A stretch of DNA of 64,000 bases from Methylobacterium sp. W2 (GTDB taxonomy: Bacteria; Pseudomonadota; Alphaproteobacteria; Rhizobiales; Beijerinckiaceae): NCBI RefSeq assembly GCF_020662345.1, contig NZ_VMOA01000006.1, positions 1 through 64,000 of the forward strand, read 5' to 3'. The notes under the pieces are model-generated. The model had not been told where the DNA came from and ran no database searches. It saw only the letters and a program-made list of their open reading frames with translations. Positions 11,797-39,032 of the stretch are shown in pieces. A program made the translations under genes and the position numbers. Numbering within the stretch: position 1 is the first letter of the stretch; every line of letters starts with the position of its first letter.

Positions 11797-13533
11797 CTAG
11801 TCGCCCTCGGCCAGGGTTCCGCGCTGGCGCGTGTCGGCGGCCCCGGCCACGAGCCCGTCTCCCGTCATCACCGAATTGGCCGAGCCCGAACTCGACCCCA
11901 CCCGCACCGCGTGCCCCTTCGCCCGGAGCAAGGCGAGGGTGTCCGGCGAGAGCCCGTCCTCTGCGAACAGCATGTCGGGCCGCCATTGGTGATGGATGCG
12001 CGGGGCGGTGACGGCCTCGGCGAGGTTCATGCGGAAATCGATGACGTTGACGATCACCTGCAGCACCGTGGAGATGATGCGGCTGCCGCCCGGACTTCCG
12101 GTGACGAGGACGAGGCGTCCGTCCTTGAGCACGATGGCCGGGGTCATCGAGGAGAGCGGCCGGGCGCCGGGCGCCACCGCATTGGCCGGGCCGCCAACGA
12201 GGCCATAGGCGTTGACGCTCCCGGTCTTGGCGGAAAAATCGTCCATCTCGTTGTTGAGGAGGACGCCGGTCCCCTCGGCCACGAGGCCGAGCCCGTAGGA
12301 GAAGTTGAGGGTCGTGGTGGTGGAGACGGCGTTCCCGGCTCGGTCCACCACCGAGTAATGGGTGGTCTGATCGGATTCGTAAGGCAGCGGGTCGCCGGCC
12401 TTCACCGCCTCAACCGGACGGGCGCGGGCGGGGTCGATGGCGGCACGCAGGGTCTCGGCATAGGCCTTGGCGGTGAGGCCGCGCACCGGCACCTGCGAGC
12501 GGGACGGGTCGCCGAGCCAGGTGGCACGGTCCGCATAGGCCGGTTTCATCGCCTCGGCGAGGGTGTGGAGCGCCTGGGCGCTGCCTGCACCCATGGCGGC
12601 GAGATCGAACCCTTCGAGGATGTTCAGGATCTCGATGAGATGGACGCCACCCGAACTCGGCGGCGGCATCGAGACGATCTCGTAGCCACGGTAGGTCCCG
12701 CGAATGGGCTGGCGGATCGCGGGGCGATAGGCGGCGAGATCGGCGGGCGTCAGCACCCCGCCCACGCGTCTCGCCGCTGCCGCGATCCGCTCCGCAATCG
12801 GGCCGGTATGGAACGCGTCGGGCCCGTGTTCGGCGATGGCCGTGAGGGTCGCGGCGAGATCGGCCTGGACCAGGGTCTCGCCCCGCTGGAGCGGTCGGCC
12901 GTCGCGGAAGAACACGGCCCGGCTCGAGGGCCAGCGCCCGAGGCGGTCGGCGGCACGGGGCAGCGAATCGGCGAGCCCGCCGTCCACGGGAATCCCGTCC
13001 CTGGCCAAAGCCCGGGCCGGGGCGATGAGGTCGGCGAGGGCGAAGCGGCCGGAGCCGTAGAGGCGGTGCGCTTCGGCCAATCCGCGCACGGAGCCGGGAA
13101 CGCCGACGGCCTTGCCGGTGCGGATGGATGCGCCGCGGTCGGGCTGCCCGTCGGCGGCGAGGAACATGTCCGCCGTCGCCGCGGCGGGTGCCGTCTCGCG
13201 AAAGTCGATGGCCACGGTCTCGCCGGTGCCGGCGAGACGGACGAGCATGAACCCGCCGCCGCCGAGATTGCCCGCCTGCGGCAGCGTCACCGCGAGGGCG
13301 AAGCCCACCGCCACGGCGGCGTCGACGGCGTTGCCCCCGCCCTTCAGGATCGCCACACCGACGCGGGTCGCCAGGGCGTCCTGCGAGGACACCATGCCGT
13401 GGATCCCGAGGACGGGGAGGATGCGGGCATCGTCGGAGGGGATCGGCGGCAGTTCCGGAACCGCCTGCGCGAGGGCCGGTCCGGGCAGGAGCGTGAGAAG
13501 CGCCAGGGCGAGGCTGAGACGACGTCCGGTCAT
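11797..13533 (-). CDS. ggt: gamma-glutamyltransferase
   Basis: 578 residues from MTGRRLSLALALLTLLPGPA, a signal peptide, so the product is periplasmic. The frame is open to 13578, but the start at 13533 places the signal peptide correctly. The Ntn-hydrolase precursor features are clear: GGNAVDAAVAVGFALAV, NLGGGGFMLV, and the autoprocessing site ESDQTTHYSVVD, where the second Thr becomes the new N-terminal nucleophile. After it come NNEMDDFS and TGSPGGSRIIS. It hydrolyses or transfers the gamma-glutamyl group of glutathione and related peptides. Length is normal for the family. Confidence 0.94.
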   Translation of the reverse strand: MTGRRLSLALALLTLLPGPALAQAVPELPPIPSDDARILPVLGIHGMVSSQDALATRVGVAILKGGGNAVDAAVAVGFALAVTLPQAGNLGGGGFMLVRLAGTGETVAIDFRETAPAAATADMFLAADGQPDRGASIRTGKAVGVPGSVRGLAEAHRLYGSGRFALADLIAPARALARDGIPVDGGLADSLPRAADRLGRWPSSRAVFFRDGRPLQRGETLVQADLAATLTAIAEHGPDAFHTGPIAERIAAAARRVGGVLTPADLAAYRPAIRQPIRGTYRGYEIVSMPPPSSGGVHLIEILNILEGFDLAAMGAGSAQALHTLAEAMKPAYADRATWLGDPSRSQVPVRGLTAKAYAETLRAAIDPARARPVEAVKAGDPLPYESDQTTHYSVVDRAGNAVSTTTTLNFSYGLGLVAEGTGVLLNNEMDDFSAKTGSVNAYGLVGGPANAVAPGARPLSSMTPAIVLKDGRLVLVTGSPGGSRIISTVLQVIVNVIDFRMNLAEAVTAPRIHHQWRPDMLFAEDGLSPDTLALLRAKGHAVRVGSSSGSANSVMTGDGLVAGAADTRQRGTLAEGD

Positions 13534-23662: not shown

Positions 23663-24733
23663 TCAGCGCCGCAATCTGGCGAGCATCCGCTCCACATGGG
23701 CGATCGGCGTCTGCGGCGTGATGCCGTGGCCGAGGTTGAAGATGTGCGGCAGACCGTCCGTCGCCTCAAGCACCCCGTCCACGGCCGCGTCCAGGGCCTC
23801 GCCACCTTCGATCAGCGTTTCGGGGTGGATGTTGCCCTGGGTCACGGTGCGGGGCGCCACGGCACCGCGCAGGGCCTTCAGATCGACGCTCCAATCGACG
23901 CCGACGGCGTCCGCGCCGGTCTCCGCCATCACACGAGCATGGCCTTCGAGCCCCGAGCCCCGGGCGAAGACGATGATCTTCGCGCCCGGCACGCGTGCCC
24001 TGACCCCGTCGACGATGCGGGCGATGGGGGAGAAGCTCCAATGCGCGAGGGCATCCGCCGTCCCGCCCGGCGCCCGGGGCAGCGAGCCGGCATGGGATTC
24101 GAAGATCTGGACCGCATCGGCACCGGCTTCGAGCTGGCGCGACAGGTACGCGATCTGCACCGAGACCAGCCGGTCGATCAGCGCTTCCACCAGGGCGGTC
24201 TCGGTATCGGCGAGTGCGCGGGCGGGAGCGAGATCGGGCGTGCCGCGTCCGCCGATCATGTAGCTCGCCACCGTCCAGGGACCGCCACAGAACCCGAGAA
24301 GCGTCGTCTCGGCCGGCAGCTCGGAGCGCAGGCGCCGGACGGTCTCGAAGACCGGCTCCAGGTGCTGGAAGATGCTCGGATCGTCGGCCTGTTTCAGACG
24401 GGCGAACTCGTCCTGGCCGTGGACCGGATCGAGCCGCGGACCTTCTCCTTCGACGAACCGGACATCCTGCCCGAGGGCGTCCGGCACGACGAGGATGTCG
24501 GAGAAGAGGATCGCCGCGTCGAAGCCGAAACGCCGGATCGGCTGCAGAGTCACTTCGGTGGCAAAGTCCGGATTGTAGCAGAGGTCGAGGAAGGAGCCGG
24601 CCCTGGCCCTGACCTCGCGATATTCCGGAAGATAACGTCCGGCCTGCCGCATCATCCAGGCGGGAGGGATCCGGGACGGCTTGCCGTCGAGAACCTGAAG
24701 CAGCGCACGATCGGTGCCGTCACGTCGAGTCAT
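23663..24733 (-). CDS. hemE: uroporphyrinogen decarboxylase
   Basis: 356 residues from [15 protein letters not shown]. It decarboxylates uroporphyrinogen III to coproporphyrinogen III. Signatures are [18 protein letters not shown] with the substrate-binding Arg pair, [12 protein letters not shown] with the active-site Asp, [13 protein letters not shown] and [11 protein letters not shown]. The frame is open to 24793, but the family start is at 24733. First gene of hemE-hemJ-lprI-like. In Caulobacter and other alphaproteobacteria hemE flanks the chromosome origin, and the gap upstream of this copy has origin-like features. Confidence 0.96.
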
Positions 24734-25028
24734 GCCTGTATCCACCCGCCTGTATCCGTCCGATCGATCATGGAAGGGAAGAGATCGTCTCACCTGGGAC
24801 AGAGCTATGACGCCCCCGTCCGCCCTCTGGAAGGTCTTTCGCCCCGGGAGGTTGTTTTACCGCAGGACGTCCTCGCGTCTCCAAGGCTCGATTCCAAAAA
24901 CCGTCTTCCTTGCGAGAGCCTCCGAGGGTGACCGGAAATCCCTGTCCCCGTCCCGTCTATCTAATAAGAAAAGAGAGATTCTAGGACTCTGTTTTTTCTT
25001 TTAGACGGGGGATGACGGGACCGCGAAC

Positions 25029-25037
25029 TTGTCCACA
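25029..25037 (+). promoter_or_regulatory. DnaA-type box in candidate oriC
   Basis: TTGTCCACA, one mismatch from TTATCCACA, 25 bases to the right of the AT-rich tract. Confidence 0.5.
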
Positions 25038-25059
25038 CCCCATCCCCGCGCCACCGCCG

Positions 25060-25074
25060 TTAACGGGGCTTTAA
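25060..25074. promoter_or_regulatory. CtrA-type box TTAA-N7-TTAA
   Basis: TTAA (25060-25063), seven bases CGGGGCT, then TTAA (25071-25074): an exact match to the CtrA site that represses initiation at the Caulobacter origin. It lies 22 bases from a DnaA-type box. TTAA is rare in such GC-rich DNA, which adds weight. Confidence 0.6.
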
Positions 25075-25262
25075 CGGGTTCGCGCTAACTTTCGAGAACG
25101 GGAAGTCTAATCAGCGACTTGCGCGCCGTGATGGGTCCCCCGTGCCCGAACCCTCCCTGAATCTCCCAAACCGGGATCGGGACGAGGGTCGTTGGTCTGC
25201 ATGTTGACGCGAGAGTCGACAACGCGGGGGAAGGTTCCGCCCCCGACCCGTGAAGGGGTGCT

Positions 25263-25305
25263 TTATCCCCACCTGTCGACTCCGGCCGTCAGGTGTGGTG
25301 GATAA
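25263..25305. promoter_or_regulatory. inverted pair of DnaA-type boxes next to ppsR
   Basis: TTATCCCCA at 25263-25271 and TTATCCACC on the opposite strand at 25297-25305 face each other within an imperfect inverted repeat (TTATCCCCACCTG versus CAGGTGTGGTGGATAA). Each box has one mismatch. The pair ends 48 bases before the ppsR start and overlaps its likely promoter. Confidence 0.45.
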
Positions 25306-25353
25306 CCCGGAGATCCCTCACGCCCGTCCGCCGGCCTGGGATGGGAATTTCCG

Positions 25354-26184
25354 ATGAGTCGCAGCTACTTCCACCTTCATCTCGTCTCGGATTCCACCGG
25401 CGAGACCCTCATCAATGTGGGTCGCGCCGCTGCCGCCCAGTATGAGGGTGTCTCGGCCATCGAGCATGTCTATCCGCTGGTGCGATCCTCGGCCCAACTC
25501 GAACGGGTGATCTCCGAGATCGAGGCGGCGCCGGGCCTCGTCCTCTACACCCTCGTCGGCCACGATCTGACCGAGCGGCTGGAAGCGGCCTGCCGCGAGA
25601 CCGGGTCGCCCTGCCTCTCGGTGCTCCAGCCGGTCCACGCCCTGCTGCAATCTTATCTCGGCGCGGAGACGACGGCCCGGCCGGGGGCGCAGCACATGCT
25701 GAACGCCGAGTATTTCAAGCGCATCGACGCAATGAACTTCACCCTCGCCCATGACGACGGCAACCTGCCCTTCGATATCGACGAGTCCGATGTGATCCTC
25801 GTGGGCGTCAGCCGCACCTCCAAGACGCCGACGGCGATCTATCTGGCCAATCGCGGGCTGAAGACCGCGAATTTCCCCCTCGTGCCGGGCATGCCAGTGC
25901 CGCCCAATCTCGAGAATGCCCGCAAGCCCCTCGTCGTCGGCCTTTTGGCGAGCGCGGAGCGGATCGTGCAGATCCGGCAAAACCGCCTGCTGAGCCTGAA
26001 GGCCGACGACACGTCACTCTATGTCGATCGCGATGCTGTGGCCGACGAGATTGCCGCCTGCCGCAAACTCTGCAACCGGCATCGCTGGCCGACCATCGAC
26101 GTCACGAGGCGGTCGATCGAGGAGACCGCCGCCGCGATCGTCGATTTGCACCGCGAGCATCGCCTCAAGTTCATCGTGGCATGA
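25354..26184 (+). CDS. ppsR: pyruvate phosphate dikinase / PEP synthase regulatory kinase-phosphorylase
   Basis: 276 residues of the DUF299 family. The N-terminus is [21 protein letters not shown]. The nucleotide-binding P-loop-like motif is [21 protein letters not shown]. The C-terminal part has [14 protein letters not shown]. The enzyme uses ADP to phosphorylate, and phosphate to reactivate, a Thr on PPDK or PEP synthase. It is first of ppsR-maf-aroE-coaE-dnaQ and overlaps maf by four bases. This family member marks the right side of the origin in alphaproteobacteria. Confidence 0.95.
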
Positions 26185-39016: not shown

Positions 39017-39032
39017 CGTTTCCCGTGAAACA
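39017..39032. promoter_or_regulatory. parS: parS-like ParB-binding site
   Basis: CGTTTCCCGTGAAACA matches 14 of 16 bases of the universal parS TGTTTCACGTGAAACA; the differences are at positions 1 and 7. The core GTTTC/GAAAC arms are perfect. It is intergenic, upstream of moxR, and about 14 kb from the candidate origin, a normal distance for parS. No parAB genes are in the window. Confidence 0.65.

Follow-up and report, generated by a model that had tools for sequence, protein, structure and literature searches.

The 620-nucleotide intergenic region between hemE and ppsR is very probably the chromosomal replication origin (oriC) in this Methylobacterium, a close relative of M. bullatum, and carries predicted sites for control by DnaA, CtrA and GANTC methylation. 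A start of replication at this region is supported by its sequence features, and the polarity of motifs points to it in one relative and to a place 90 kb from it in the closest one; that CtrA would repress initiation there, and that methylation would have an effect on it, we infer from Caulobacter. The window referred to throughout is the whole stretch of 64,000 nucleotides that was analysed, corresponding to the first 64 kb of one contig (C93) of a draft genome (5.39 Mb, 125 contigs). The ppsR protein encoded in the window is 99% identical to those of M. bullatum LMG 24788 and of three other Methylobacterium strains.

The intergenic region (hereafter the gap) is bounded by the ATG codons of the two genes (hemE, 24733; ppsR, 25354), and its sequence gave a single match in its own genome. 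Its AT content is above average, with a GC fraction of 0.60 as against 0.65–0.75 in 2-kb windows. Next on the right of ppsR come genes for a Maf-like protein, a shikimate dehydrogenase and a protein with an exonuclease domain, and a coaE-like reading frame was recognised among them by eye; we take this gene order to correspond to that of Caulobacter. The coordinates of the gap, its flanking genes and the sites within it are collated in the table.

Features of the hemE/ppsR region (positions in the 64-kb window; fractions refer to the aligned set of 80 gaps)
Feature	Position	Strand	Evidence
hemE (uroporphyrinogen decarboxylase), left flank of the origin	23663..24733	-	URO-D PF01208, E 2.4e-106
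hemE/ppsR intergenic region, candidate chromosomal origin	24734..25353		site statistics, conservation, single genome match
GANTC	24890		kept in 1/80
AT-rich tract, probable unwinding element	24959..25005		72% AT, the highest of any 47-mer in the 64 kb; contains two GANTC sites
GANTC, inside AT tract	24977..24981		kept in 77/80
GANTC, inside AT tract	24985..24989		kept in 69/80
DnaA box 1, TTGTCCACA	25029..25037	+	one mismatch to TTATCCACA; TCCACA core invariant in 80/80 gaps
Predicted CtrA box TTAA-N7-TTAA	25060..25074		exact in 80/80 gaps; half-sites invariant, spacer variable
IHF-like CAR-N4-TTR core	25112..25121	+	one aligned place in 67/80; in the window, differs at one base from the fuller IHF consensus
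GANTC	25159..25163		kept in 75/80
GANTC	25213..25217		kept in 66/80
DnaA box 2, TTATCCCCA	25263..25271	+	one mismatch; at most one mismatch to TTATCCACA in 72/80 gaps
GANTC	25278..25282		kept in 77/80
DnaA box 3, TTATCCACC	25297..25305	-	one mismatch; GGTGGAYAA on the plus strand in 39/80
ppsR / COG1806 / DUF299, right flank	25354..26184	+	Kinase-PPPase PF03618, E 8e-89

Relatives were sampled with a DNA-similarity query (positions 24700–25420), which gave matches in 70 of 99 genomes, namely the own genome, every one of the 58 others from its genus and 11 of the 40 from other families; outside the genus, coverage among the matches listed extended little beyond the start of ppsR. The ppsR gene was located in 27 of the 30 families of the order that were searched. 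From 80 fetched loci, 79 hemE/ppsR gaps were obtained (L033, which had no hemE match, was left out), and addition of the window's own gap brought the set to 80. These gaps stem from Methylobacterium, Methylorubrum, Microvirga (five gaps) and three family-level metagenome bins, and they are not independent, 37 being left after merging at an identity of at least 85% and 15 at 70%. Alignment of the gap across relatives had been proposed in the initial annotation as a check, and it found the boxes conserved. The spacing of the core is rigid despite a variable gap length (408–782 nt): the GANTC site of the AT tract lies 54–57 nt from the core of DnaA box 1, this core lies 27–29 nt from the CtrA box in 80/80 gaps, and box 2 starts exactly 15 nt ahead of the aligned place of the GANTC site at 25278, likewise in 80/80. 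The distance from the CtrA box to box 2 is 192–228 nt.

Three one-mismatch DnaA boxes had been reported for the gap, and all three were found again; the whole window holds six boxes with at most one mismatch, so that half of them fall within these 620 nt. Dinucleotide shuffles of the gap contained 0.05 such boxes on average, and none of 2000 shuffles attained three. Over the 80 gaps, 98 boxes were counted against 2.6 expected; at least one was present in 72 gaps, relatives often have only one or two, and eight gaps are devoid of any box at this threshold. Most relatives carry at least two mismatches to TTATCCACA at box 1, because its first three bases vary. Box 3 is the least conserved of the three, with 26 variants over the 80 gaps. 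In a separate observation on the DnaA ATPase family, two genomes (G010 and G018) gave 25 and 14 matches in all, repeated and additional to dnaA; these are probably IstB-type transposition helpers and not the initiator.

The exact TTAA-N7-TTAA box is, as originally annotated, the only one in the 64 kb, and 0.002 would be expected in the gap from shuffles. The own genome holds 36 exact matches, against nine for the same pattern reversed. In the 80 gaps, 84 exact boxes were found versus 0.1 expected, with at least one in each gap (a single box in 76, a double one in four Microvirga gaps), and the remaining 934,796 bases of the 79 loci contain one. In the alignment, the eight bases of the half-sites and the G preceding them are invariant; all 8 half-site columns are thus fixed, as compared with 9% of the other core columns, and the median pairwise identity of the core is 60%. 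The spacer is variable, since the box plus one base on each side occurs in 24 forms. Fixed half-sites around a varying spacer are what selection on a protein site would look like. A search of the open-access literature found, in the text that was accessible, no description of an invariant origin CtrA box in Methylobacteriaceae.

The box might, within a gap that is still the origin, let CtrA control a promoter of hemE or ppsR and have no part in replication control. CtrA is a transcription factor, the box sits between two divergent genes, and the 36 boxes of the genome can hardly all serve replication. This reading is nevertheless considered unlikely, given that the box keeps its fixed distance to the box 1 core, and this core to the GANTC site of the tract, whereas the intervals between the box and the two genes differ among gaps by hundreds of bases. 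A promoter and terminator scan of positions 24700–25400 moreover returned no sigma-70-like promoter and no terminator, although promoters of other types would escape such a scan.

Four of the five Microvirga gaps (L077, L079, L080 and L082) carry their second exact CtrA box 59 nt past the first, where, on our reading of the alignment and spacing, it overlaps the CAR-N4-TTR core. The start of the IHF-like core follows the first CtrA box at 63 nt in five rows of the alignment and at 52 nt in the other 75; we read the five rows as those of Microvirga, and the difference in offset amounts to about one helical turn.

The AT-rich tract reported earlier was recovered as the most AT-rich 47-mer of the window, and the alignment of the 80 gaps is strongly conserved from about 24970 to about 25002. 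The 8-bp inverted repeat said to bracket it (24952–24959/25002–25009) is present in the window but exact in only 5/80 gaps; it lies outside the conserved design, and a functional stem around the tract was rejected on this ground. For the six GANTC sites, described as an excess, the count holds and is rare for the 64 kb, in which segments of 620 nt average 1.10 sites and 0.6% of them attain six, but shuffles of the gap itself give 4.4 (P 0.26, not significant), and the excess was rejected as statistical evidence for the window's gap. The case for these sites leans for this reason on conservation, five of them being kept in 66–77 of the 80 gaps. In the set as a whole, 561 GANTC sites were counted against 260 expected, in gaps that are mutually related.

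Strong intergenic conservation would also be seen if the conserved elements belonged to an untranslated RNA or leader and not to an origin. This explanation is hardly credible: no Rfam match was obtained up to E = 1, conservation is concentrated in protein-site motifs, and the inverted repeat is kept exactly in few gaps.

The position at which replication starts was addressed in relatives. GC skew, which had been suggested as a test of the annotation, was calculated over tiles of three of them (G008, 40 and then 60 tiles; G019 and G024, 40 tiles each), and proved flat and noisy; there was no clear minimum at the gap, and the signal was too weak to yield a usable one there or elsewhere. In Methylocystis SC2, GC skew likewise failed to place the origin, according to the accessible part of PMC3794950. 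KOPS-type motifs were used because GC skew gave no usable minimum. The polar octamer GGGNAGGG was taken to be the FtsK-orienting sequence (KOPS), and a looser polar pattern, RGNAGGGS, was set aside as noisier. With G019 (40 tiles of 20 kb), the best breakpoint of motif polarity fell at the hemE gap, 154 of 197 motifs lying on the expected strand, and dnaA was 22.9 log units worse. With G008 (60 tiles), whose gap is the most similar among the relatives (90%), the switch was placed at 1.24 Mb, whereas the gap is at 1.15 Mb, a distance of 90 kb; relative to the best breakpoint, the fit was worse by 8.9 log units at the gap and by 29.8 at dnaA. This offset is the main result against the gap as origin. 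In G024, polarity flips many times, which we read as rearrangement near the origin, and the motif is, by its whole-genome totals (860 and 907), barely more frequent than the reversed control (799 and 820); with hemE 0.4 and dnaA 4.4 log units below the best, this relative does not discriminate between sites. In the window, the right side has 8 motifs on the plus and 3 on the minus strand, as expected, and the left 25 kb (5 plus, 2 minus) runs in the wrong direction.

The G008 result raises the alternative of an origin at the gid-parAB-parS locus, some 90 kb distant, or else at dnaA, with the hemE gap conserved for a regulatory function instead. The switch in G008 stands beside an exact parS site (1,240,181) and genes read by eye from their protein starts as mnmG, rsmG, parA and parB, the parS near the gap of G008 having two mismatches; dnaA, for its part, is placed at the beginning of the G008 record. 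Against this, the segment C1:1.198–1.220 Mb of G008 is inverted relative to C1:2.550–2.566 Mb of G019 although both hemE gaps are on the same strand, and the motifs have flipped along with the block (1 plus, 4 minus in G008; 4 plus, 0 minus in G019). A block farther out (G008, 1.304–1.319 Mb) is colinear with G019. Because a local inversion flips the motifs, the 90-kb offset is explained at least in part, and the case for the parAB/gid locus is weakened; the inversion was demonstrated for 1.198–1.220 Mb, a portion of the reversed stretch of G008. Scattered matches of G008 1.151–1.198 Mb to the other side of the G019 gap suggest more rearrangement around the gap of G008. The window is colinear with G008 1.113–1.177 Mb, and its left 25 kb shares the reversed motifs of G008.

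In the DnaA-box scan of G008 (1.2 Mb tiled, of which 460 kb are contiguous around the gap), the gap was the only site with three boxes inside 400 nt; the scan covers the gap region of G008, the tiles of G019 and G024 excluding their own hemE gaps. Taken with the best breakpoint at the gap in G019, this leaves the gid-parAB-parS locus and dnaA very improbable as sites of the origin, and dnaA was rejected on the log-unit differences obtained with G019 and G008. Among the tiles of G019, one CtrA box and one DnaA box occur together inside 400 nt at 12508, distant from the gap.

Sites matching the parS consensus with up to two mismatches were found in 14/14 genomes. Distances were computed for the five of these with known contig sizes (those of G026 rounded), and in 5/5 the nearest parS was closer to the gap (13.7, 18.7, 23.2, 65.2 and 45.4 kb) than to dnaA (1136, 2176, 976, 1200 and 82 kb). 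For a point chosen at random, the probability of doing as well was 0.01, 0.01, 0.06, 0.09 and 0.12. The window contains a parS-like site with two mismatches at 39017–39032, 14 kb from the gap, and G008 has a similar site at roughly the corresponding position (1136960). The original assignment of the gap as oriC is thus supported by the conserved boxes and by motif polarity and parS sites near the gap and away from dnaA, with the switch of G008 lying 90 kb off.

Candidate genes for the regulators are present. The own genome has four CtrA-family matches above the NF045991 cut-off (C104:40876, C54:27350, C81:6942 and C68:41670), one GcrA match over its cut-off together with a weak one below, and one RAMA-domain protein of the CcrM type, a putative GANTC methylase. 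CtrA was found at E 1e-100 or better in 93 of 99 genomes (59 of the genus, including the own, and 40 from other families) and, among 14 control genomes, in Caulobacter alone at E 1e-100. The RAMA domain was confined to Caulobacter among the same controls, and the GcrA family occurred in Caulobacter and, unexpectedly, in Sulfolobus. At least two CtrA matches were counted in 17 of the 59 genomes of the genus versus 0/40 from other families of the order; the number of gene copies is in places lower than that of matches, because some of the extra ones are partial or contain stop codons (G036, G037, G041). The earlier proposal that a Caulobacter-type control logic has been kept therefore stands for the sites (CtrA box, GANTC) and for the genes (CtrA, GcrA, CcrM-type), whereas at the level of binding and replication it is extrapolated.

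Genes for CtrA also occur on plasmids. The CtrA of G019 was matched at E 1e-50 by 45 plasmid records, ten of them from Methylobacterium, and nine of these ten measure 37 to 67 kb. Three plasmids (L254, NZ_LR743512; L255, NZ_CP099612; L256, NZ_AP014709) carry ctrA with genes for ParA and MucR. A 22-residue segment of CtrA, which presumably includes the recognition helix, agrees fully with that of the chromosomal CtrA of G019 in two of these plasmids and differs from it at two positions in the third. L254 and L256 contain one exact CtrA box apiece (0.05 and 0.02 expected in these partial plasmid sequences), and L255 contains none. It is conceivable, if rather doubtful, that the plasmid-borne proteins could act on the invariant CtrA box at the origin of the host, which would give a plasmid the means to slow or time the replication of the host chromosome.

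With the gap as oriC, the following course of events may be proposed. DnaA would bind boxes 1 to 3 and open the AT-rich tract, which adjoins box 1. Phosphorylated CtrA, on the TTAA-N7-TTAA box 22 nt beyond box 1, would block or delay initiation, and methylation of the GANTC sites by the CcrM-type enzyme, two of these sites lying inside the tract, would distinguish copied from uncopied origins. No overlap is seen between the CtrA box and the DnaA boxes found at the threshold used, weak boxes being unscored, so that there is no sign of a simple competition of the two proteins for shared bases; CtrA may instead block the growth of a DnaA complex from box 1, or its box may overlap weak DnaA boxes of the unscored kind.

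In Caulobacter, dnaA lies near the origin Cori; the relatives differ from this arrangement in that roughly 1 Mb or more separates dnaA from the gap. An origin at this place is unsurprising, because it is where one would be expected for the class: the boundary of hemE and COG1806 (the same family as DUF299) bounds the origins of Caulobacter and Rickettsia according to the available text of PMC1914354, which makes the location of the gap ordinary. Cori of Caulobacter crescentus (hemE/CC0001, COG1806) shares with the gap the flanking genes, an AT-rich stretch, DnaA boxes, TTAA-N7-TTAA and an IHF-like core. It has five CtrA boxes in the account given in part of PMC1914354, as against the one exact box here, and its CtrA and DnaA sites overlap (from an excerpt of PMC4285127), an overlap not found among the boxes scored here. 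The CtrA/IHF-core overlap of Microvirga recalls a Caulobacter site at which, in the same excerpt of PMC4285127, IHF and CtrA sites overlap. For data sets that include one Methylobacterium, origin positions from DoriC have been used, as far as the accessible text of PMC5378121 describes.

The boundary of hemE and COG1806 is common to Rickettsia and the present genome, and DnaA, CtrA and IHF sites served as origin criteria for the Rickettsia/Wolbachia group, in which zero to seven CtrA sites are given in the part of PMC1914354 available, as compared with one in 76/80 gaps here. In Hyphomonas neptunium, CtrA binds a site adjoining the origin by ChIP-seq (PMC7200025). The corresponding binding in Methylobacterium is predicted only. 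Brucella is an alphaproteobacterium with CtrA and belongs, by older taxonomy, to the same order as Methylobacterium. For Brucella abortus, binding of CtrA to the origin is reported to be absent (stated in a section of PMC2877005), in contrast to the invariant predicted box found here, and for this reason such a box in Methylobacterium, Methylorubrum and Microvirga was less to be expected. With one CtrA site in place of the five of Caulobacter, the Methylobacteriaceae would offer a clean one-site case for how CtrA restrains initiation.
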